A stretch of 26,728 nt of DNA from Streptomyces violaceorubidus (GTDB lineage: Bacteria > Actinomycetota > Actinomycetes > Streptomycetales > Streptomycetaceae): contig NZ_JODM01000050.1 of assembly GCF_000717995.1 (NCBI RefSeq), positions 1 through 26,728 of the forward strand, given 5' to 3'. The number at the start of each line of letters is the position of its first letter. The first letter of the stretch is position 1. A program made the translations under genes and the position numbers. Positions 4,880 to 23,987 of the stretch are shown here, piece after piece. Below the pieces are notes generated by a model. The model saw nothing but the letters and a program-made list of their open reading frames with translations, was not told the DNA's origin and searched no databases.

Positions 4880-6007
4880 GTGAAGCTTCAGCGCATGAAC
4901 CGGCGGGCCCTCGCTCTCGGTGCTCTCGCCGTCTCCGGCGCCCTGGCCCTCACGGCGTGCGGCTCGGACGACACCGGCGGCAGCAGCAACGGCAGCGACG
5001 CCAGCGCCTCCGCCAACAGCAACATCAAGTGCGACGACGCCAAGGGCCAGCTCCAGGCGTCCGGCTCCTCCGCGCAGAAGAACGCCATCGACGCGTGGGT
5101 CAAGCAGTACGTCGCGGCCTGCAACGGCGTGCAGATCAACTACAACCCGACCGGCTCGGGCGCGGGCATCACCGCCTTCACGCAGGGCCAGACCGCGTTC
5201 GCCGGTTCGGACTCCGCGCTGAAGCCGGAGGAGATCGAGGCCTCGAAGAAGGTCTGCAAGGACGGCCAGGCCATCGACCTGCCGATGGTCGGCGGCCCGA
5301 TCGCGGTCGGCTTCAACGTCCCGGGTGTCGACACCCTGGTCCTGGACGCCCCGACGATGGCCAAGATCTTCGACAGCAAGATCACCAACTGGAACGACGA
5401 GGCGATCAAGAAGCTCAACCCCGAGGCCAAGCTGCCCGACCTCAAGATCCAGGCCTTCCACCGCTCGGACGAGTCCGGCACCACGGACAACTTCACCAAG
5501 TACCTCAAGGCCGCCGCGCCCGACGACTGGAAGTACGAGGGCGGCAAGTCCTGGGAGGCCAAGGGCGGCCAGTCCGCTCAGGGCTCCTCCGGTCTGGCCG
5601 GCCAGGTGAAGCAGACCTCCGGCGCCATCTCGTACTTCGAGCTGTCCTACGCCAAGGACGGCATCAAGACCGTCGACGTCAAGACCGCGGCCGCCGAGCC
5701 GGTCAAGGCCAGCGTCGAGAACGCCACCGCCGCCATCGGCGGGGCCAAGGTCGTCGGCACCGGCAAGGACCTCGCCCTGGAGCTGGACTACACCCCGGAC
5801 GCCGCGGGCGCCTACCCGCTGGTCCTGGTGACGTACGAGATCGCCTGCGACAAGGGCAACAAGGCGGACACCCTGCCCGCCACCAAGTCCTTCCTGAACT
5901 ACATGGCCTCGGAGGACGGCCAGGGCCTGCTGGCGGACGCCGGCTACGCCCCGATGCCCACCGAGATCATCACCAAGGTCCGCGAGACCATCTCGGGCCT
6001 GAGCTGA
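4880..6007 (+). CDS. pstS: Phosphate-binding lipoprotein PstS
   Basis: PstS is the extracytoplasmic receptor that captures phosphate and delivers it to PstCAB. The 375-residue precursor has a lipoprotein signal peptide: MNRR positive region, hydrophobic residues 10-24, lipobox LTAC with Cys27 as the lipidated residue. A Gly/Ser/Asn-rich linker follows, then the phosphate-binding fold with NPTGSGAGITAF near residue 93 and the FAGSD and DESGTTDNF motifs that contact phosphate. The GTG start has GGAAGGA ten bases upstream. A PHO box array lies upstream and a long hairpin immediately downstream, which fits strong, partly independent expression relative to pstCAB. Family and role are secure. Confidence 0.97.
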   Translation: MKLQRMNRRALALGALAVSGALALTACGSDDTGGSSNGSDASASANSNIKCDDAKGQLQASGSSAQKNAIDAWVKQYVAACNGVQINYNPTGSGAGITAFTQGQTAFAGSDSALKPEEIEASKKVCKDGQAIDLPMVGGPIAVGFNVPGVDTLVLDAPTMAKIFDSKITNWNDEAIKKLNPEAKLPDLKIQAFHRSDESGTTDNFTKYLKAAAPDDWKYEGGKSWEAKGGQSAQGSSGLAGQVKQTSGAISYFELSYAKDGIKTVDVKTAAAEPVKASVENATAAIGGAKVVGTGKDLALELDYTPDAAGAYPLVLVTYEIACDKGNKADTLPATKSFLNYMASEDGQGLLADAGYAPMPTEIITKVRETISGLS

Positions 6008-10991: not shown

Positions 10992-11381
10992 ATGACGACC
11001 ACCGAGGCCGGCGCGGGTGCGCCCTCCTCCGCCGTGGACCAGGCGGTGGACCAGGTGGAGACGGACGGCACGGACATCGTGACCGACCACGACCGCGGCG
11101 TGCACGGCTACCACAAGCAGAAGGACGAGCACCTCAAGCGCCTGCGCCGGATCGAGGGCCAGATCCGCGGCCTTCAGCGGATGGTCGACGAGGACGTCTA
11201 CTGCATCGACATACTGACCCAGGTCTCCGCCTCCACCAAGGCCCTGCAGTCCTTCGCGCTGCAACTGCTGGAGGAGCACCTGCGGCACTGCGTCGCCGAC
11301 GCGGCCCTCAAGGGCGGCACCGAGATCGACGCCAAGGTGGAAGAGGCGACGAAGGCCATCGGCCGCCTACTGCGCACGTGA
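10992..11381 (+). CDS. csoR: Copper-sensing transcriptional repressor CsoR
   Basis: CsoR is an all-helical tetrameric repressor that releases DNA when it binds Cu(I). The 129-residue product has a 38-residue disordered acidic tail and then the core with HLKRLRRIEGQIRGLQRMV. The ligand set is Cys71, His96 and Cys100. Its spacing (25, then 4) equals that of the M. tuberculosis copper sensor (Cys36, His61, Cys65), so copper is favoured over nickel, formaldehyde or persulfide. The ATG has AGGAGG five bases upstream. No copper ATPase or chaperone is nearby, so the other targets must lie elsewhere. Its 3' end overlaps a convergent small gene by 15 bases. Confidence 0.93.
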   Translation: MTTTEAGAGAPSSAVDQAVDQVETDGTDIVTDHDRGVHGYHKQKDEHLKRLRRIEGQIRGLQRMVDEDVYCIDILTQVSASTKALQSFALQLLEEHLRHCVADAALKGGTEIDAKVEEATKAIGRLLRT

Positions 11382-15492: not shown

Positions 15493-16494
15493 TCACACCG
15501 TGGTGGGCAGCGCTTTCGCGCCATCCTCGGTCACCCGAGTGGCCCCGAAATAGTCGGGGGTGTCGATCGGGTCGAACCGGATCACGGCACCCGTCCGCGG
15601 CGCGTCGATCATGTACCCGCCGCCCACGTAGATCCCCACGTGCCGGATGGCCCGCGAGTTGGTGAGGTCGTCGGAGAAGAACACCAGGTCCCCCGGCAGC
15701 AGTTCGTCCCGCGCGGGATGCGCCCCCGCGTTGTACTGGTCGTTGGCCACCCGCGGCAGCTTGATCCCGACACTCTCGTACGCCGCCTTGGTCAGCCCCG
15801 AGCAGTCGAACCGCCCGCCCTGCTCGGGCGTCCCGTTCCCACCCCACAGATACAGGGTTCCGAGCTTCTTCTGCGCGTAGGCGATGGCACCGGCGGCCTG
15901 CTCGGACGGATCGACCCGGCCGGTGGGCGCGGCGAAGCTCCTCTCCAGGGTCGTGATCACCTTGACGTAGTTCCGCGTCTCCGTGTACGGCGGCACGCCC
16001 TGGTACTTGATGACCGCGTAGGCCCCCGCGTTGTAGGAGGCCAGCATGTTCTCGGTGGGGTCGCCGGGCACGTCCTTCACGTACGAGGCGAGGGAGCAGT
16101 CGTACGACGCCGCCGACGGGATCGCGTCCGCCGGGTCCCACACGTCCCGGTCCCCGTCCCCGTCCCCGTCGATGCCGTGGGTGGCCCACGTCCCGGGAAT
16201 GAACTGCGCGATCCCCTGCGCCGCCGCCGCGCTCCGCGCCCTCGGGTTGAAGCCGCTCTCCTGGTACAACTGGGCGGCCAGCAGCGCGGGGTTGATGGCG
16301 GGACAGAGATTGCCCCACTTCTGCACGATCGGCTGGTACGCCGCGGGCACGCTCCCCTTGGCGAGCTTCTTGGCCCCGCCGCCCGCGCCGCCGGCCAGGT
16401 CCCCGGCGACGAGGTAGACACCGACGACGAGCAGCATCACGAAGCCCATCCCCAGGGCAACCGCGACACCGGCTCCGACCCACATCTTGCGCAT
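15493..16494 (-). CDS. Bifunctional SLT/NlpC-P60 peptidoglycan hydrolase
   Basis: This 333-residue wall hydrolase begins with a membrane anchor or signal segment (residues 4-30). A lytic-transglycosylase domain follows (about 58-190): QESGFNP with catalytic Glu79, then AAQGIAQFIPGTW and ENMLASYNAG. The C-terminal NlpC/P60 endopeptidase (about 202-325) has catalytic Cys231 in FDCSGLTK and His285 in RHVGIYVG. An acidic DGDGDGDRD loop at 110-117 may bind calcium. This architecture matches the VirB1-type hydrolases of Gram-positive conjugation systems. It is divergent from the type IV secretion-like genes, so it probably opens the wall for that machine. ATG 16494 is preferred, with GGGGGA ten bases upstream; ATG 16512 is an alternative without a ribosome-binding site. 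Confidence 0.93.
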   Translation of the reverse strand: MRKMWVGAGVAVALGMGFVMLLVVGVYLVAGDLAGGAGGGAKKLAKGSVPAAYQPIVQKWGNLCPAINPALLAAQLYQESGFNPRARSAAAAQGIAQFIPGTWATHGIDGDGDGDRDVWDPADAIPSAASYDCSLASYVKDVPGDPTENMLASYNAGAYAVIKYQGVPPYTETRNYVKVITTLERSFAAPTGRVDPSEQAAGAIAYAQKKLGTLYLWGGNGTPEQGGRFDCSGLTKAAYESVGIKLPRVANDQYNAGAHPARDELLPGDLVFFSDDLTNSRAIRHVGIYVGGGYMIDAPRTGAVIRFDPIDTPDYFGATRVTEDGAKALPTTV

Positions 16495-16624
16495 GGTCCA
16501 ACCATCCCCCATGAGCGCGCGGTTCAGTGACGTTTCCCGGCCATGTCCGACCACCTGAAGGCCAGTCACACACCGTGATGCCGGGCCCATTCGATCACGT
16601 CGCAGAAGGGCCCAACGACGGAAC

Positions 16625-16673
16625 CACGTGACAGGTTGCGCCCCCGCATCATTGCCCGGCGTAACCTCACGTG
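16625..16673. promoter_or_regulatory. Large inverted repeat with CACGTG ends
   Basis: CACGTG-AC-AGGTTGCGCC (16625-16642) is matched on the opposite strand by GGCGTAACCT-CACGTG (16658-16673). The arms pair over 16 positions with one mismatch and a two-base bulge, around a 15-base centre. It lies midway between divergent genes, so it may be an operator for both or a cruciform-forming element. The binding protein is unknown. Confidence 0.55.
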
Positions 16674-16804
16674 ATACACAGAGTGACCATACGACTCTTT
16701 GGACACCGGTCCGCACCACCCGGCCAGGGCCCGGCGCGGACCGGTGGCAAGCTATTCGCACGAAACCCGCCAATCAATGACGCCAAGTCGACATGCGACG
16801 GTGC

Positions 16805-16821
16805 CATTGTCAGCGACAATG
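16805..16821. promoter_or_regulatory. Palindrome CATTGTC-AGC-GACAATG
   Basis: Perfect 7-bp arms flank AGC, just before a TTGACC hexamer (16826-16831) that could be the -35 of the rightward operon. This is a typical size and place for a dimeric regulator site. The regulator is unknown. Confidence 0.5.
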
Positions 16822-16882
16822 AGGCTTGACCTCTGCATGCCCGCAGGGGATGCGGAACTACCCAACAGGGGCGGTGACTTAC

Positions 16883-17191
16883 ATGCTCTTTGCGGCCGAC
16901 GAGGGAGACATCAACACCATCATCGGGGGGATCGCTCCGGACTGGGGCCCCTTCGGTGCGCTGGGGACCGAGGCCAAGACGATGGTCCAGGTCGTCATGG
17001 CCGTCGCCATCCTGCTCTGCCTCGGCATCGCCATCTGGGGCGCCGCCAAGCAGCGCATCGGCGCCACCGCGCTCCGGGACACCTTCAGCGCGGAGCAGGG
17101 CAAGGGCCTGATCATCGCGGGACTGACGGGCGTGTTCATCATCGGCTCGCTCGGCACACTCTTCACCATCGTGTACGGGATGGCCGTGTAG
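16883..17191 (+). CDS. Small two-TM membrane protein, VirB2/TrbC-like position
   Basis: This 102-residue protein has two hydrophobic helices (about residues 33-52, VQVVMAVAILLCLGIAIWGA, and 75-98). A short polar loop (AAKQRIGATALRDTFSAEQGK) joins them, and the Ala/Asp/Gly N-terminus probably faces outward. Size and topology match VirB2/TrbC pilin-like subunits and the small membrane protein that opens many actinobacterial type IV secretion-like clusters (DUF6112 from memory, unverified). No homology to pilins can be shown by eye. The ATG at 16883 is preferred, with AGGGGCGG about eight bases upstream; GTG 16874 is an in-frame alternative. A 166-base gap follows before the next gene. Confidence 0.85.
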   Translation: MLFAADEGDINTIIGGIAPDWGPFGALGTEAKTMVQVVMAVAILLCLGIAIWGAAKQRIGATALRDTFSAEQGKGLIIAGLTGVFIIGSLGTLFTIVYGMAV

Positions 17192-17357
17192 CCCGGCACG
17201 CAACCGTTCCTCCCCCTTCATCCCACCCGCCCGTCGTGCCAACCGGCTGAGGTTGCGTTTCCCTGATGTCGAGTCATAACACCGCGCCCGAGCGGGAACC
17301 AGCACGGCTACCGTCGTACGTACACGGCCGACCCGACGTCGAGGGGGCGTACGCGGC

Positions 17358-18161
17358 ATGAGTCTCGGAGACGATCACCACTCGTCCGGCGATTACGGCG
17401 GCACCGGCCAGACCCGGCTCCGGCTGCCGGAGGAGGAGGGCGGGCCCCGACGCGGCGGCCGCTCCTCCTCGCGGAGCCTGGTCACCGTGGTCGGCGTCGT
17501 CGTCCTCCTCATCGCGGCGATCGCCTTCGCGAACCGTGGAGGAGACGATTCCGCATCCGTGGAGGGCGGCGACGGGAACAAGCCGAAGACGTCCTCGACG
17601 GCACCGTCGGGGACCCGCCCCGTACAGTCGGGCTTCGCCCATGACGAGCAGGGGGCGCAGAGCGCGGCGGCGAACTACGCGGTCGCGCTGGGTTCTGACG
17701 GGATGTTCGACAAGACCAGACGGCACGAGATCGTGAGCACCGTCTATGCGCCCGACATCGCCGCAGCCCGACAGACGGATCTGGACGGTGCGTACTCCAG
17801 CGCGAAGTTCCTGGCCAACATCGGCCTGGACAAGGACGGCAAGGCGCCGACCGGTCAGACCTTCGTCTCCCGAGTGATCCCAGTGGGCACCAAGGTCACG
17901 GCGTCCAGCGCCGAGAAGGCGACCGTCGAGGTCTGGTACACCTCGCTCTTCGGGCTCTCGGGTGGCAGCTCGACCAACCCCGTGACCGAAAGTTGGTACA
18001 CCACCACGTACCAGCTGACGTGGACCAATGACGACTGGAAGGTCACCGACTTCCAGCAGAAGGACGGACCTGTGCCGGTCGGGCGCGATCAGCGGGCTTC
18101 CACGGCCGACGACATGACGAAGGCCGTCGAGGAATACGGAGGGTTCACGTATGCGCGCTAA
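17358..18161 (+). CDS. VirB8/TcpC-like single-pass membrane protein
   Basis: This 267-residue protein has a polar cytoplasmic tail (residues 1-40), one transmembrane helix (about 41-59, LVTVVGVVVLLIAAIAFA), a Ser/Thr-rich linker and an extracytoplasmic domain from about 85. The domain pattern (QSAAANYAVALGSDGMF, later TTTYQLTWTNDDWKVTDFQ) fits the NTF2-like fold of VirB8 and TcpC proteins. These proteins form the inner-membrane scaffold of type IV secretion channels. It starts at ATG 17358 after a GGGGG sequence and overlaps the next gene by 11 bases. A possible promoter (TTGCGT, 16-base spacer, CATAAC) lies about 80 bases upstream. The family call rests on topology and operon context more than on motifs. 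Confidence 0.78.
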   Translation: MSLGDDHHSSGDYGGTGQTRLRLPEEEGGPRRGGRSSSRSLVTVVGVVVLLIAAIAFANRGGDDSASVEGGDGNKPKTSSTAPSGTRPVQSGFAHDEQGAQSAAANYAVALGSDGMFDKTRRHEIVSTVYAPDIAAARQTDLDGAYSSAKFLANIGLDKDGKAPTGQTFVSRVIPVGTKVTASSAEKATVEVWYTSLFGLSGGSSTNPVTESWYTTTYQLTWTNDDWKVTDFQQKDGPVPVGRDQRASTADDMTKAVEEYGGFTYAR

Positions 18162-19479
18162 CCACCGCGTCCTCAAGGTCTCGGCCGCTGTCGCGGCAGT
18201 ACAGGCTTCTACGATCCTGCTGGCCAGCCGGGCGTTCGCCGCGCCCACACCGGCTCCCACGGACACCGACGATCCCTGCGATCTCATCCGCGGCCCCGCC
18301 AAGGACTACTGCGAACGAGGCAGCCGCAGCGGCTCCGGTGGCGGGGGAAGCACCCCCGACACCCTCCCCTCCACCCTCGACCCCCTCTCCTCCCTCGCCA
18401 AGGGCTGCGCCGACGCCGCCGCCTGGACCGTCGACACGCTCAGTGACGCCGTCAAGAACACCGCCGACGTCGACTTCACGAACGACACGTTCCTCAAGCA
18501 GTACGCCGTCGTCTTCGCGGCGTCCGCGTTCCTGACCCTGGTCCTGTGGCTGCTCGCGGTCGCCAAGCGTGCCGTGCGCGGCGTCCCGCTCACCACCGCG
18601 CTCTCCGAGGCCGTCGGGTTCCTCTGGCTCACCGTCCTGGCCTCGGCCTTCACGCCGCTGATCCTGTACACGGTCGTGTCGGCCACCGACGCCGTGACCG
18701 ACGTCCTGGCCAAGGGCACCGGCGACCAGACCGACACGTTCTTCGGCACCTTCTCCCAGGCCCTGAAGCAGGGCGACGACATCGGCGGCGGCCCGATCAT
18801 GCTGATCCTGGTGTCCTTCGTGTCGATCGTCGCGGCCGGCGTCCTCTACCTGGAGCTGTACCTGCGCGCCGTCCTGCTCTACGTCGGCGCCCTGCTCGGT
18901 GTCGTCGTCTACGCGGGCCTGGTCGACAAGAACCTGTGGGGCCACGTTCGCCGCTGGGCCGGCATCATGATCGCGGTGATCATGGTCAAGCCCGTGATCG
19001 TCATCGTGCTGGGCCTCGCGGGCGCCCTGACCACGGAGGACGGGCCCGACTCCGTGGCCGCCATCGTGTCCGGCCTCGCCATCATCCTGCTCGCGATCTT
19101 CGCCTCCGCGATGATCTACCGCTTCGTCCCCGGCTTCGGCGACGAGATCGCCAACGGCCGCAACAACCGCATCATGCAGGGTGCCGAGGGCAAGGCCGCC
19201 GCCGTGATCAGCTCCCCGGCGAACCTGGTCGCCCAGGGCATCAGAACGCACAGCAGCCGCAACAACGGCGACGCCGGCGGCGGACAGTCCTCGTCCGCCG
19301 CGGCCCGCCCCTCGAACCCCGCCTCCGGCGGAGTCGCCGCGCACAGCACGCGCCCCTCGAACGGCGGCGGCGGAAATGTCCCCTCCGCCGCACCCGCACC
19401 GCGTTCCGGCAGCCCGGTGAACACACCGCACGCAAGCAACACCCGCAACAGCAAGAGCACAGGAGGTGACGGGCGTTGA
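18151..19479 (+). CDS. VirB6/TrbL-like polytopic membrane protein
   Basis: This 442-residue protein has a cleavable signal peptide (SRAFA|AP near residue 30). A short extracytoplasmic part with two Cys (DPCDLIRG, KDYCERG) and a Gly/Ser linker leads to about six helices between 115 and 330. The C-terminal tail of about 100 residues is disordered, rich in Ser, Asn, Gly and Pro. Signal peptide, six helices and a long polar tail are typical of the TrbL/VirB6 channel proteins of Gram-positive systems. ATG 18151 overlaps the preceding stop, with GGAGGG seven bases upstream. Its own stop overlaps the next start (TTGA), so the operon is tightly coupled. Confidence 0.82.
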   Translation: MRANHRVLKVSAAVAAVQASTILLASRAFAAPTPAPTDTDDPCDLIRGPAKDYCERGSRSGSGGGGSTPDTLPSTLDPLSSLAKGCADAAAWTVDTLSDAVKNTADVDFTNDTFLKQYAVVFAASAFLTLVLWLLAVAKRAVRGVPLTTALSEAVGFLWLTVLASAFTPLILYTVVSATDAVTDVLAKGTGDQTDTFFGTFSQALKQGDDIGGGPIMLILVSFVSIVAAGVLYLELYLRAVLLYVGALLGVVVYAGLVDKNLWGHVRRWAGIMIAVIMVKPVIVIVLGLAGALTTEDGPDSVAAIVSGLAIILLAIFASAMIYRFVPGFGDEIANGRNNRIMQGAEGKAAAVISSPANLVAQGIRTHSSRNNGDAGGGQSSSAAARPSNPASGGVAAHSTRPSNGGGGNVPSAAPAPRSGSPVNTPHASNTRNSKSTGGDGR

Positions 19480-21035
19480 CGACCGAGTCCCACGTGTCCC
19501 ACACGGTCACGCCCCGCCGTACGTATCTGATCGGCCGCGCCCGGCCGAACGCGATCGTCGGCCGCAACCGCGAGACCGGAGAGATCGCGCTGATCGTCGT
19601 GGGCGCGTTCCTCGGCATGATGTGCGGGCTCCTCGTCCCCGTCCTGAGCCTGCGCATCGTGCTGCTCGCCGGCTTCCCGATGCTCGCGCTGGCGGCGGTC
19701 TACGTGCCGTACAACCACCGGACGTTCTACCGGTGGTTCGAGATCAACCGCAGCTACAAGCGCACCCTCCGCACGGGCACCACCTACCGCTCCGGCGCCA
19801 TCGAGGCCGGGACGAGGATCGACGGCCGCGAGGTCGAGGTCGGGCCGCCGCCCGGCATCGGCCGCATCTCCTGGCTGGCGGCACCCTTCGGGCCGGACGA
19901 GATCGCCGTACTGCTGCACGCCGACCGCAAGACCGTCACCGCCGCGATCGAAATCGAGGGGCCCGGCGTCGGCCTGCGCGACTCCGAGGACCAGGAAGCC
20001 CTCGTCGACCGCTTCGGCACCCTGCTCAAGCACGTGGCCAACGGCGACGGCTTCGTCACCCGCATCCAGATGCTCGCCCGTACCCTCCCGGCCGACCCGG
20101 ACGCGCACGCCAAGGACGTCGCCCAGCGCGGTGACGAGAAGGCGCCGCCGTGGCTGCGGCAGTCGTACGACCAGCTCCAGTCGATGGTGTCCACCAGCAG
20201 CGAGCAGCACCGCGCGTACCTGATCGCCTGCATGCACTACAACCGCGAGCTGGCCGCCGAGGCGCACACCATGGCCCGCGCCGCCCGGCCGCACAGCGGA
20301 CGCAGGCTGGACCGGGACGCCGGCCTCGCGGTCGTGATGGCGCGGGAGCTGACCGACATCTGCTCCCGCCTCCAGGAGGCCGACATCCGCGTCCGCCAGC
20401 CGCTGGGCCAGGGCCGGCTCGCCTCCCTGATCCACGCCATGTACGACCCGGACCACCCGATCGACCACATCCAGGCGATGACCAAGCGCAACGCCTGGCC
20501 GGCCGAGCTGGACGCCATGGAGCCCACCTACCTCCAGGCCAAGACCCGCGAGTCCGCCACCCGCGCCCCCTGGTGCCACGCCACCGCCTGGATCAAGGAG
20601 TGGCCGATGACCCCGGTGGGCGTCAACTTCCTGGCGCCGCTCCTGGTCCACACCCCGGACGTGATCCGCACCGTCGCCGTCACCATGGACCTCGAACCCA
20701 CCGAGGTCGCCATCGAGCGCATGCTGACCGAGAAGACGAACGACGACGCCGAGGCCTCCCGGGCGGCCAAGATGAACCGCACCGTGGACCCCCGCGACAT
20801 CGCCGCCCACGGCCGCCTCGACCAGCGCGGCGAGGACCTCGCCAGCGGCGCGGCCGGCGTCAACCTGGTCGGCTACATCACCGTCTCCTCCCGGAACCCC
20901 GAGGCGCTGGCCCGCGACAAGCGGACGATAAGGGCCTCGGCCGGAAAGTCGTACCTGAAACTGGAGTGGTGCGACCGTGAGCACCATCGCGCCTTCGTGA
21001 ACACTCTTCCGTTCGCCACCGGCATCCGAAGGTAG
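19476..21035 (+). CDS. SCO6880-type protein: PrgI membrane part plus VirB4 N-terminal part
   Basis: This 519-residue protein starts at TTG, overlapping the previous stop, with an ideal AGGAGGTGA site nine bases upstream. Two helices at about residues 37-78 resemble the PrgI membrane module. The rest (RISWLAAPFGPDEIAVL, AYLIACMHYNRELAAEA, LTDICSRLQEADIRV) resembles the N-terminal, non-ATPase half of VirB4/TrbE proteins. It has no Walker motifs. The matching ATPase half is the next gene, 12 bases on, so the pair together looks like one VirB4 divided into membrane and motor subunits. This family is annotated as SCO6880-like in actinobacteria (from memory). Confidence 0.82.
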   Translation: MTTESHVSHTVTPRRTYLIGRARPNAIVGRNRETGEIALIVVGAFLGMMCGLLVPVLSLRIVLLAGFPMLALAAVYVPYNHRTFYRWFEINRSYKRTLRTGTTYRSGAIEAGTRIDGREVEVGPPPGIGRISWLAAPFGPDEIAVLLHADRKTVTAAIEIEGPGVGLRDSEDQEALVDRFGTLLKHVANGDGFVTRIQMLARTLPADPDAHAKDVAQRGDEKAPPWLRQSYDQLQSMVSTSSEQHRAYLIACMHYNRELAAEAHTMARAARPHSGRRLDRDAGLAVVMARELTDICSRLQEADIRVRQPLGQGRLASLIHAMYDPDHPIDHIQAMTKRNAWPAELDAMEPTYLQAKTRESATRAPWCHATAWIKEWPMTPVGVNFLAPLLVHTPDVIRTVAVTMDLEPTEVAIERMLTEKTNDDAEASRAAKMNRTVDPRDIAAHGRLDQRGEDLASGAAGVNLVGYITVSSRNPEALARDKRTIRASAGKSYLKLEWCDREHHRAFVNTLPFATGIRR

Positions 21036-21047
21036 GGGCTGAGCCTG

Positions 21048-22460
21048 ATGCGGGACCCGCTGACCGTCCTCACCGACGCCTTCACGTCCTTCCTCTTCGG
21101 GAAGGTGGAGACGACCCGCCTCCCCGTCCGCACGTCCACCGGCCAGGCCCAGGCGGTCTACCTGCCGACGGCCGCGCCCGGCCTCGGCGACTCCGGCGTG
21201 ATCATCGGCCGCGAGGTCTACTCCGGCAAGGGCTACATCTACGACCCCTTCCAGCTCTACGGCCAGCAGCTCCCCGCCCCGCACTGGCTGGTCCTGGGCG
21301 AGTCCGGCAACGGCAAGTCGGCGCTGGAGAAGACGTACGTCCTGCGCCAGCTCCGCTTCCGCGACCGCCAGGTCGTCGTCCTGGACGCCCAGGGCGAGGA
21401 CGGCGTCGGCGAGTGGAACCTCATCGCCGAGGAGCTGGGCATAACTCCCATCCGCCTCGACCCGATGGCCGCCCTGGACCACGGCATCCGGCTGAACCCG
21501 CTGGACCCGGCGATCACGACGACGGGCCAGCTGGCGCTGCTCCGGACCATCATCGAGGTCGCCATGGGCCACGGCCTGGACGAGCGCTCCGGCTTCGCCC
21601 TCAAGGTCGCGCACGCCTACGTCAACGAGACCATCGTCGAACGCCAGCCGGTCCTCACCGACATCGTCGAGCGGCTCCGCCACCCCGAGCCGGAGTCCGC
21701 CGAGGCGATGAACGTCGCCATAGACGACGTACGGGCCTGGGGCCTGGACGTCGCGCTCGTCCTGGACCGCCTCGTCGACGGCGACCTGCGCGGCATGTTC
21801 GACGGCCCGACGACGGTCGGCATCGACCTCGACGCCCCGCTCATCGTCTTCGACCTCTCCCACATCGACCGCAACTCCATCGCGATGCCGATCCTGATGG
21901 CCATCGTGGGCGTGTGGCTGGAGCACACCTGGATCCGCCCCGACCGGAAGAAGCGCATCTTCCTGGTCGAGGAGGCCTGGCACATCATCAACAGCCCGTT
22001 CGTGGCGCAGCTGTTCCAGCGGCTGCTGAAGTTCGGGCGCCGGCTGGGTCTGTCGTTCGTGGCGGTGGTGCACCACCTGTCGGACGTCGTCGACGGGGCG
22101 GCCGCCAGAGAAGCCGCGGCCATCCTCAAGATGGCCTCCACCCGCACGATCTACGCCCAGAAGGCCGACGAGGCCCGGGCCACCGGCCGCGTCCTCGGCC
22201 TGCCCCGCTGGGCGGTGGAGATCATCCCCTCCCTCACGCCCGGCATCGCGGTGTGGGACGTCAACGGCAACGTCCAGGTCGTCAAACACCTGATCACCGA
22301 GACCGAACGCCCCCTGGTCTTCACCGACCGCGCGATGACCGAGTCCTCGTCCGACGTGACCGACGACGCGCTGCGTGCCGCGGAGCTGGAGGCGGAGGAG
22401 CGGGCGGCGGCGTTCATGGAGCAGCACATCGGCGACTCGTCGGAATCGACGGTGGCGTAG
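21048..22460 (+). CDS. VirB4-like secretion ATPase
   Basis: This 470-residue ATPase belongs to the VirB4/TraC/FtsK-HerA group. Walker A is GESGNGKS (residues 84-91) in HWLVLGESGNGKS. DAQGEDGVGEWN and DPMAALDHGIRLNPLDP follow, as in VirB4 proteins. Walker B is KRIFLVEEAWHII (Glu308/Glu309), and the later RRLGLSFVAVVHHLSDV is the usual sensor-like segment. It lacks the roughly 300-residue N-terminal domain of full VirB4; that part is in the preceding gene. There is no transmembrane helix. The C-terminus is acidic. It should energise the secretion-like apparatus encoded around it. The ATG has AGGGG nine bases upstream. Confidence 0.92.
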   Translation: MRDPLTVLTDAFTSFLFGKVETTRLPVRTSTGQAQAVYLPTAAPGLGDSGVIIGREVYSGKGYIYDPFQLYGQQLPAPHWLVLGESGNGKSALEKTYVLRQLRFRDRQVVVLDAQGEDGVGEWNLIAEELGITPIRLDPMAALDHGIRLNPLDPAITTTGQLALLRTIIEVAMGHGLDERSGFALKVAHAYVNETIVERQPVLTDIVERLRHPEPESAEAMNVAIDDVRAWGLDVALVLDRLVDGDLRGMFDGPTTVGIDLDAPLIVFDLSHIDRNSIAMPILMAIVGVWLEHTWIRPDRKKRIFLVEEAWHIINSPFVAQLFQRLLKFGRRLGLSFVAVVHHLSDVVDGAAAREAAAILKMASTRTIYAQKADEARATGRVLGLPRWAVEIIPSLTPGIAVWDVNGNVQVVKHLITETERPLVFTDRAMTESSSDVTDDALRAAELEAEERAAAFMEQHIGDSSESTVA

Positions 22461-22487
22461 GACGAGAAACGGAGAGGCACCGGACGC

Positions 22488-23987
22488 ATGAGACCGGACG
22501 ACCGCCGCGACCAGCGGCCGGCCCAGGGCGGCATCCCCGACGGCCTGCTGATCGGCATGCTGGCCTTCCTCCTCGGCATGACCCTGCTGGTGTGGACGGC
22601 GACCGGCCTGTCGGCCCTGTTCGCCCAGGGCGCCTGGCCCGACGGCGTCAGCTTCACCGGCACCCCGCAGGCCATGCGCCAGCTGATCGCCGAGCCCCAC
22701 GACCTCCCCGGCGCCTGGCCGCAGGCTCCGCGCACGGCGCTCTCCGGGTACGGGCTGTTCTGGGGCCTGTTCATCGGCCAGCTGATGGTGCTGGTGGTGC
22801 TGACGGTGTTCGTGATGGGCAAGGTGGCGCGATGGCGAGCGGTACGACAGCGCCGGCGTGAGGCGCCGACGCCGGTGCACGAGGTGCCGGTGCACGAGGC
22901 GCCGGTGCACGAGACGCCGGTGACACCGACCCAGGCAGCCCCGCCGCACGAAGTCCCCATCCCCAGGACGCCGCGACAGGCCCCGGCTCCGGAGCCCGAG
23001 CCCGAGCCCTCAGTCTCCGCGACCAACGGCAAACGTGTAGGCGGATGGGAGACCCACCGCGCCGAGGGCACGGTGCACTACGGCTCCCGGGCCAGCCGCC
23101 ACGAGACCGCGACCGCCGCCCTGCGGGACGCGGAGGCCGCCGCCCTCGTCATCACCTCCAACCCCACCCTCTGGTCGGAGACCAAGGACGCCCGCGCCAA
23201 GCTCGGCCCCACCCACCTCTACGACCCGAACCACCTCTGCGACACCCCCGCCCGCTTCCACTGGTCCCCCACCGCGGGCTGCGAGGACAGGGGTACGGCC
23301 ACCGCCCGAGCCGCCGCCCTGCTCGCACCGGTCCGCCCCACCGCCCGGCTCGACCAGGCGGTCGGCGACACGGCCGAACTGCTGCTGCGCAGCTACCTCC
23401 ACGCCGCCGCCATCGACGGCCGCACCATCCGCCACGTCCACCGCTGGTCCCAGGGCCTCCAGGTCCAGGACGCCGTGCGCGTCCTGCGCACCCACCCCAA
23501 GGCCGCCCCAGGCTCCGCGGGAGAACTCGAAGGGTCCCTCACCGCCCACCCCGAGCGCCGGGACATGGCCCAGCAGTTGACCGCCCGCGCCCTCGCCGCG
23601 CTGTCCACCGTCAATATCCGCGAGGCCTGCACTCCCAACCGAAATGATGCCCTCGCCTTGGATTCCTTCGTCCACGAACAGGGCACCCTTTACGTGGTGG
23701 GTGAATCCATTGAGGATCCCCGTACGAGCCCGGGCGCGATGCCGCTGCTGACGGCGCTCGTCTCCAGCGTGGTCGAGCGCGGCCGGCGCATGGCCGAACG
23801 GTCATCCTCCGGTCGCCTCGACCCACCAATGACCCTCGTCCTGGACGACGTCGCGGCCGTGGCACCGCTCCCCCAGCTCCCGGAGCTGCTGGCCACCGGC
23901 ACGGACATCGGCATGCCGACCCTGGCCCTGCTCCGCTCCCGCGAACAGGGCCGCGCCCGCTGGCCGCACGACGAACTCCCCGTCTGA
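22488..23987 (+). CDS. VirD4/TraG-like protein without a P-loop
   Basis: This 499-residue protein has two N-terminal transmembrane helices (about 19-46 and 86-108) and a Pro/Glu/His-rich linker with three 5-residue repeats (PVHEx). From about 185 a domain follows VirD4/TraG coupling proteins: EAAALVITSNPTLWSETKDAR, HLYDPNHL and FHWSPTAGCED correspond to their post-P-loop region. No GxxxxGK(S/T) is present; SRASRHETATAAL lies where Walker A belongs. Walker B is MTLVLDD (Asp453, Asp454), with Asp for the usual catalytic Glu. The chain ends about 45 residues later, short of the normal C-terminus. It is therefore probably an inactive, structural coupling-protein relative. The frame is intact and GC3-biased, so it is not an obvious pseudogene. 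ATG has GGAGAGG about ten bases upstream. Confidence 0.8.
   Translation: MRPDDRRDQRPAQGGIPDGLLIGMLAFLLGMTLLVWTATGLSALFAQGAWPDGVSFTGTPQAMRQLIAEPHDLPGAWPQAPRTALSGYGLFWGLFIGQLMVLVVLTVFVMGKVARWRAVRQRRREAPTPVHEVPVHEAPVHETPVTPTQAAPPHEVPIPRTPRQAPAPEPEPEPSVSATNGKRVGGWETHRAEGTVHYGSRASRHETATAALRDAEAAALVITSNPTLWSETKDARAKLGPTHLYDPNHLCDTPARFHWSPTAGCEDRGTATARAAALLAPVRPTARLDQAVGDTAELLLRSYLHAAAIDGRTIRHVHRWSQGLQVQDAVRVLRTHPKAAPGSAGELEGSLTAHPERRDMAQQLTARALAALSTVNIREACTPNRNDALALDSFVHEQGTLYVVGESIEDPRTSPGAMPLLTALVSSVVERGRRMAERSSSGRLDPPMTLVLDDVAAVAPLPQLPELLATGTDIGMPTLALLRSREQGRARWPHDELPV
22875..22919 (+). repeat. Three 15-bp tandem repeats in the VirD4-like gene
   Basis: Three near-identical units of GTGCACGAGGTGCCG type (22875-22889, 22890-22904, 22905-22919) differ only at the fourth codon (Val, Ala, Thr). 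They encode Val-His-Glu-x-Pro in the linker after the second membrane helix. Such repeats may vary in copy number between strains. Confidence 0.9.

Follow-up and report, generated by a model that had tools for sequence, protein, structure and literature searches.

What is the job of a conjugation-type secretion machine that sits in a bacterial chromosome with no relaxase beside it? The question is raised by a locus of Streptomyces violaceorubidus contained in a stretch of 26,728 nt (hereafter, the window; positions refer to it unless another locus is named). Genes at 15493-23987 were likened by a first-pass annotation to components of type IV secretion systems (T4SS), and a domesticated apparatus was proposed, with a cellular task such as protein or DNA export, hyphal DNA transfer or a role in development. 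Comparison of the locus across genomes leads us to a reading to which we give a probability of about 0.6: the locus, known in Streptomyces as cmd, would be a T4SS-derived machine without a coupling motor, endowed with a swappable extracellular face that is presumably kept by selection from outside the cell.

Assignment of the locus to cmd

Gene order, together with matches to SCO6880_fam and SCO6881_fam, agrees with SCO4126-4132 of Streptomyces coelicolor, and on these sequence grounds the locus is identified as cmdABCDEF (SCO4126-4131; PMC2782261) plus tgdA (SCO4132; PMC6585502). Six co-oriented genes in the order F-E-D-C-B-A lie on the plus strand, preceded by the divergent tgdA on the minus strand. 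All seven open reading frames are genuine as judged by GC content at codon positions. The features are as follows:

15493-16512, minus strand: tgdA (ortholog of SCO4132), VirB1-like wall hydrolase with SLT and NlpC/P60 domains (Pfam matches)
16883-17191, plus strand: cmdF, 102 residues, two hydrophobic segments, VirB2-like by a weak assignment (hydropathy)
17358-18161, plus strand: cmdE, one transmembrane segment and an extracellular NTF2-like domain, VirB8 (predicted fold)
17690-18375 (approximate edges), plus strand: swapped cassette, of class I in the window (class and tree tests, sliding windows)
18151-19479, plus strand: cmdD, polytopic membrane protein, VirB6/TrbL-like (weak family matches, topology)
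19476-21035, plus strand: cmdC, two-transmembrane hairpin and large soluble domain, SCO6880 family (NCBIfam)
21048-22460, plus strand: cmdB, VirB4-type ATPase (C-terminal half), P-loop GESGNGKS with K90 (Pfam)
22488-23987, plus strand: cmdA, VirD4/TraG-like, without Walker A, probable degenerate coupling protein (TraG-D_C tail)

A polymorphic cassette in cmdE and cmdD

The cassette lies within the coordinates of the first-pass annotation and becomes visible only when loci are compared. It comprises the extracellular domain of CmdE and approximately the first 75 codons of cmdD. For its analysis we used 81 Streptomyces loci (the window, L032-L051 and L099-L158), all with cmdB, cmdC, cmdD and cmdE; cmdF was present in 79 of them and a complete cmdA in 74. 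The CmdE domain falls into five classes with 20, 16, 23, 6 and 15 members, plus one singleton (L049), and identity averages 67% within a class and 51% between classes. It was the cassette itself that served to define the classes, and of several thresholds, which give different numbers of groups, one was chosen. Ratios of same-class to different-class divergence inside the cassette are therefore circular, while tree tests and the absolute edges of the cassette are not.

Among the 45 closest pairs of loci by cmdB, cmdC and cmdD, pairs of different class show 30-40% nucleotide divergence in the domain at a backbone divergence of 2.5-7%, and same-class pairs diverge by 5-15% in the domain. The edges were located in seven different-class pairs. 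On the left, divergence rises abruptly to about 25-60% around codons 100-120 of cmdE, one pair showing an earlier jump in the linker, near codon 60. On the right, background level is reached again around codons 40-80 of cmdD. The rest of cmdD, as well as cmdF, cmdC and cmdB, stays near background in the same pairs.

On the backbone tree, the classes require 44 changes (minimum, 5; mean of shuffled labels, 47.4; 17 of 200 shuffles as low), a count that becomes 43 if the singleton is omitted; on the cassette tree, 5 changes are needed. The nearest relative by cmdB and cmdC belongs to another class in 63 of the 81 species, compared with 63.9 expected at random. Approximately unbiased (AU) tests on the cassette tree rejected the backbone group in four cases out of four (p from 0.002 to below 1e-26), with groups picked after the classes had been seen.

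A replicate was drawn from 80 named loci, of which 76 had complete cmdB, cmdC and cmdE; 67 were usable, their cmdB plus cmdC sequences being identical neither to the first set nor among themselves. All five classes recurred. Among protein records labelled S. tendae, two belong to class I and one to class V. Outside the genus, five loci (L079, L080, L082, L084, L085) show 65-68% identity to one class and at most 58% to the next, which indicates that some classes are older than genera; the remaining loci of other genera tested had no clear class fit.

Altogether, these observations show that the cassette is replaced by homologous recombination between species, and that at least five old classes have been shuffled over the tree: deep allelic classes are found spread against the species tree. 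Could the classes have arisen, instead, because a surface domain under loose constraint diverged rapidly and independently in separate lineages? The higher rate of cmdE compared with its neighbours, seen within classes too, and the dependence of group number on threshold would agree with such an origin. We consider it very improbable, as distant species return to one class with shared residues, the change counts on the two trees are far apart, the AU tests reject the backbone groups and the 67 additional loci all fell into the five classes, none of them ambiguously.

As a control, 168 kb were aligned between two sister species of different class (mean identity, 96.5%). Windows of 300 bases with less than 80% identity were 36 out of 3294, grouped in five islands, and cmd is one of two long islands with at least 91% identity throughout both flanks. 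The other, with 64-78% identity between flanks of 91-97%, is found at L241:12914-14031 and contains, by eye, a gene for a helix-turn-helix regulator and a small neighbour; it is perhaps another swapped locus. A third low-identity island lies at L247:14700-15350, where no clear gene was found.

CmdA, a coupling protein without Walker A

The first-pass annotation described a VirD4-like product. The family resemblance stands, in the form of a TraG-D_C tail in CmdA (E value 0.0017, under the cut-off); the ATPase motif does not, as the segment aligned to Walker A is replaced. The P-loop motif is absent from all 121 close homologs of CmdA, the window's copy included. None of 34 listed copies from cmd loci, of which two are short, has Walker A at the right place, compared with APPREGKT in both outgroup copies. 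P-loop matches in the CmdA of L035 and L038 lie in a variable linker, away from the place of the motif, and were counted as chance; the 74 complete copies of the 81-locus set contain the same two chance matches. One locus of another family, L094, retains GPARSGKA.

Decay has gone further in some other genera. Among 18 loci, CmdA is kept in 12, reduced to a membrane piece of 141-158 residues in two (L092, L093) and gone from four (L089, L090, L095, L096). A profile search of these six genomes detected the ATPase part at none of the cmd loci, and a match elsewhere in three of the six. In the genome of S. violaceorubidus itself (282 contigs, rated 100% complete) no PF02534 (VirD4) match was found, nor any relaxase match for the two families searched, PF03432 and PF08751. 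The absence of a relaxase, noted earlier for the window, thus extends to the genome for these families.

Hence, CmdA is a degenerate coupling protein: it has lost the nucleotide-binding loop, and some lineages have lost its ATPase part entirely. The ratio of nonsynonymous to synonymous substitution rates (dN/dS) is 0.24-0.37 for cmdA in five pairs, so CmdA is still under some constraint. The linker that joins what is left of the ATPase domain to the membrane part (22850-23150) is hypervariable and rich in indels, and it varies between loci of the same class too.

Equivalence of the remaining parts

The remaining products were matched, part by part, to the components of a Gram-positive T4SS, and the earlier assignments fared unequally.

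(i). TgdA has both domains of the VirB1-like hydrolase that had been proposed (Pfam NLPC_P60, 1.7e-23; SLT, 9.1e-15). It was scanned from an inner start at 16467; the ATG at 16512 is likely, from inspection of the sequence.

(ii). CmdE yields no VirB8 match by sequence. Its predicted structure has the VirB8 fold, with an NTF2-like domain behind a single transmembrane segment, and the structural comparison suggested earlier therefore bears out the VirB8 assignment.

(iii). CmdB, the proposed VirB4, is indeed the ATPase (AAA_10, 1.7e-13; P-loop_TraG, 2.3e-7), with a VirB4 Walker A. Its P-loop is present in 81/81 Streptomyces copies, and dN/dS is 0.01-0.07 in the five pairs. What needs revision is the notion of a single VirB4 gene, which is apparently split: the adjoining CmdC (SCO6880_fam, 2e-55; hairpin at about residues 32-79) can be read as VirB3 fused to the N-terminal half of VirB4. 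The AlphaFold2 model of CmdC is poor outside the hairpin (mean predicted confidence, pLDDT, 34).

(iv). CmdD has several hydrophobic segments and a topology that fits a VirB6-like polytopic protein, as had been proposed. Family matches are weak: SCO6881_fam at 2.1e-4 and 20.5 bits, far under the curated cut-off of 325, and TrbL_4 in 3 of 19 CmdD members (best, 3.4e-4), not including the window's own.

(v). CmdF shows the two hydrophobic segments that suggested VirB2, and the assignment itself is weak, as T4SS_pilin matches 2 of 18 members (best E value, 0.0064) and not the CmdF of the window. CmdF is 45% and 43% identical to its counterparts by position in two T4SS loci whose VirD4 is intact.

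From these comparisons, equivalents of VirB1, VirB8 and VirB4 are kept under purifying selection; a VirB6 equivalent is likely, and VirB2 and VirB3 equivalents are possible.

Distribution

The wide presence of cmd supports the view, already held in the first-pass annotation, that the locus belongs to the core genome. A CmdB ortholog with 88-100% identity is found in 149 of 151 Streptomyces genomes. In one of the two misses (G120) cmdC lies at base 50 of its contig, so cmdB would lie beyond the assembly edge; the other (G132) has a weak match in an assembly of 1010 contigs. CmdC is present in 297/297 genomes of the family (16 genera) and 119/119 of the order, the ranks of the compared genomes being inferred from kinship to the Streptomyces window. 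Orthologs have at least 71% identity, with 71-74% in 13 genomes of two other families, and further CmdC copies listed there reach at most 43%. In a sample of the phylum, 88 of 396 genomes gave any CmdB match; outside the genus, identity does not exceed 40% over most of the protein or 48% for short pieces. The presence of CmdC in all family and order genomes searched implies that the machine was fixed before the order split, and no patchy distribution was seen.

All 20 Streptomyces loci compared have the genes in the order E-D-C-B-A. A cmdF gene was detected in 18 of the 20 and, outside Streptomyces, in 16 of 18 loci; tgdA lies in the fetched stretch, within 3.6 kb of cmdF, in 10 and 16 of them, respectively.

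In view of the near-universal presence of the locus in genus, family and order, a still-mobile element was rejected. A decaying integrative and conjugative element (ICE) without present function might be suspected because a relaxase match is lacking and VirD4 is degenerate. A survey of ICEs treats elements without such genes as defective and reports one near the chromosome centre in 11/11 strains (PMC9513070); our guess is that this element is cmd. A relic is hardly credible for a locus found in every order genome searched, with a conserved P-loop and strong constraint on cmdB, and it is contradicted by deletion phenotypes reported in three species (PMC2782261).

Function of cmd

Genetic evidence was published by Xie, Zeng and Qin in 2009 (PMC2782261). 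Deletion of the six genes in S. coelicolor delayed aerial growth and sporulation, hyphae branched, and actinorhodin was over-produced; without the operon, aerial hyphae, septation and chromosome segregation were not normal. Anucleate spores amounted to 8% upon cmdB deletion and 6% upon cmdA-F deletion, compared with 0.1% in the wild type. K90 of CmdB was reported as required. Deletion of cmdA alone caused no apparent difference in sporulation. Deletion of the orthologs had an effect in two further species. Transfer of an SLP2-derived plasmid did not change significantly (data not shown in that paper). A mutagenesis study of 2019 lists cmdBCDEF and tgdA, not cmdA, among the down-modulators of actinorhodin (PMC6585502).

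The deletion test that the first-pass annotation asked for is thus on record, with sporulation and segregation defects and no significant effect on plasmid transfer. Neither that experiment nor the interpretation is new, because the 2009 study deleted the genes, recognized the likeness of CmdB to VirB4 and put forward a type IV-like channel. The earlier observation is confirmed. Its interpretation is partly supported and largely published: a domesticated, core locus with a developmental job is supported by its occurrence in the sampled genomes of the whole order and by the knockouts (PMC2782261). Less can be said for an export machine for DNA or protein, or for transfer of DNA between hyphae, given the lack of a relaxase match in the two families searched, the degenerate or lost coupling ATPase and a plasmid transfer that did not change significantly.

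One alternative is an active DNA translocator, as suggested in 2009: CmdB and CmdC would pump or tether chromosomes through septa at sporulation, and the VirD4 remnant would be dispensable because VirB4 itself moves DNA. The anucleate spores speak for it, as does the grouping of VirB4 with the FtsK/HerA ATPases (PMC12857230). We regard it as unlikely: the mutants also show delayed aerial growth and abnormal branching, so the segregation defect may be secondary; no DNA-processing gene was seen in the operon; and the swapped extracellular cassette is left unexplained.

In the reading that we prefer, a T4SS derivative with an exchangeable outer face, the inner machine of a conjugation-type T4SS was fixed in the chromosome before the order split. 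ATPase cycles of CmdB and CmdC may power a trans-envelope assembly that works either upon the wall or in positioning as septa form, and the machine would not recruit DNA through a coupling protein. The extracellular head of CmdE would be bound by a variable outside agent, most likely phages or competitor toxins that exploit an exposed, glycosylated, universal protein, or alternatively neighbouring hyphae. Negative frequency-dependent selection might keep the classes in circulation.

What could bind the head? By gene order CmdE corresponds to SCO4130, which appears among the 38 proteins of a glycoprotein table of S. coelicolor (PMC6593405), and the linker of CmdE (residues 59-95) is rich in serine, threonine and proline, a plausible glycosylation site. 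Infection by phage phiC31 requires Pmt and Ppm1, hence protein O-mannosylation, and a glycoprotein has been proposed as its receptor (PMC5882110), described as “still unknown” in 2018 (PMC5982138). The listing of CmdE as a glycoprotein and the O-mannosylation requirement of phiC31 make a receptor or self-recognition face testable. A receptor for phages or toxins, or a face used in recognition, would be expected to look much like this head: exposed, glycosylated, universally present and circulating in classes. It is conceivable, if somewhat short of an even chance, that the CmdE/CmdD head serves recognition at the cell's exterior, either as a receptor for competitor toxins or for Streptomyces phages, phiC31 being one candidate, or as the means by which hyphae distinguish kin from non-kin through a T4SS-derived complex that no longer recruits DNA; an arms race or self-recognition would keep its five classes in circulation. 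A link to umbrella toxins was considered and set aside; the source paper treats the toxin receptor as an open question.

A narrower proposal is that the cassette is a self/non-self face: touching hyphae would compare their CmdE/CmdD heads, much as exclusion works in conjugation, and contact or wall remodelling would go ahead only between like classes, or only between unlike ones. Some exclusion systems recognize the partner's VirB6 homolog, and exclusion groups exist (PMC11493245); in cmd, variation falls on VirB8 and on the first portion of the VirB6-like protein, and all five classes recur in both sets of loci. However, the VirB6 contacts described in that source are cytoplasmic and the cmd cassette is extracellular. 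Moreover, the hyphae of a clonal colony are all of one class, so the sporulation effect needs no polymorphism. We find this proposal rather unlikely.

Several points weigh against a machine with an exchangeable outer face under outside selection:

(i). We infer both the binding partner of CmdE and the selection on the cassette. The dN/dS of cmdE is 0.24-0.59 in the five pairs, not above 1, and the CmdD part is weakly linked to the CmdE class.

(ii). The classes of the replicate are partly clustered on the tree: they need 34 changes, compared with a minimum of 4 and a mean of 39.8 for shuffled labels, and only 4 of 200 shuffles came out as low. The nearest relative is of another class in 42 of 67 loci against 53.2 expected. 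These counts denote some clustering but massive swapping.

(iii). Three other islands below 75% identity exist in the 168 kb of the control, one of them also flanked by 91-97%. Allele replacement is therefore rare but not unique to cmd.

(iv). By the glycoprotein criterion, the other 37 proteins of the table are receptor candidates of equal standing. A review of 2025 describes “PTS”, presumably PstS, as a phage receptor (PMC12757957).

Surroundings of the locus

The junctions described by the first-pass annotation, with overlaps at 18151 and 19476 and gaps of 12 and 27 bases, match the gene coordinates: cmdE and cmdD overlap at 18151-18161, cmdD and cmdC at 19476-19479, cmdC and cmdB are separated by 12 bases (21035/21048) and cmdB and cmdA by 27 (22460/22488). 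The setting between csoR and an rRNA operon is likewise confirmed. On the left are found:

10992-11381, plus strand: csoR (PF02583, 4.9e-30)

and, between it and tgdA, three genes: one without Pfam match, an FAD-linked oxidase and a PAP2 protein. On the right lie genes for a GNAT acetyltransferase, a histidine kinase and, by eye, a response regulator. Rfam gave no rRNA match at the end of the window, where the operon is cut off; 5S and 23S genes occur at the equivalent position in 4/4 related loci scanned. A tRNA search of the window detected none. PstS, also a glycoprotein in S. coelicolor (PMC6593405), is encoded at 4880-6007, 11-13 kb away from cmdE.

Comparison with known systems

The cmdABCDEF-tgdA locus of S. 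coelicolor has the same genes, order and chromosomal setting and is the orthologous locus. The 2009 study noted, besides CmdB, three genes similar to SLP2 transfer genes, and named the SCO6871-6884 cluster (PMC2782261), here counted among the systems closest to cmd. In its available parts, that account makes no VirB8 or VirB6 assignment and does not mention the loss of Walker A in CmdA or a polymorphic cassette; in the open-licence literature of PubMed Central (PMC), no account of either of the latter two was found. The new elements are thus the part-by-part mapping of cmd onto a Gram-positive T4SS, with a VirB8 fold for CmdE; the loss of Walker A in CmdA; and the cassette of about 0.7 kb, with five classes that are exchanged between species. 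An operon known for “membrane proteins for differentiation” becomes, in this light, a defined T4SS derivative that probably lacks a working coupling motor.

Conjugative T4SS of Gram-positive bacteria (SLP2 transfer genes; FA/FATA-type systems like those of ICEBs1, pCF10 and Tn916) share with cmd the cluster of VirB1-like, VirB8, VirB6-like, VirB4 and VirD4-like components. Unlike them, cmd has no relaxase match in the two families searched, its coupling ATPase is degenerate, its VirB4 is apparently made by two genes, and it is core rather than mobile. An intermediate comparison is offered by two T4SS loci in Streptomyces genomes:

L097:3808-13426, T4SS locus
L098:5483-14616, T4SS locus

Both have the same gene series as cmd, with 38-49% identity in CmdB and CmdC. 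In contrast to cmd, they are patchy and keep an intact VirD4 (APPREGKT; TraG-D_C, 8.2e-24 and 2.6e-23). We regard them as living relatives of the cmd ancestor.

Polymorphic surface receptors under frequency-dependent selection include phage receptors and TraA of myxobacteria. As in cmd, old allelic classes of an extracellular domain occur there in an otherwise conserved protein, regardless of the species tree. The polymorphic cassette of some 700 bases would then be the part of cmd that meets the outside world, and identification of its ligand could settle which exposed protein phages or competing streptomycetes target, or how hyphae recognize each other. The difference is that the variable domain of cmd, for a ligand that is still putative, is the VirB8 head of a T4SS-derived developmental complex.

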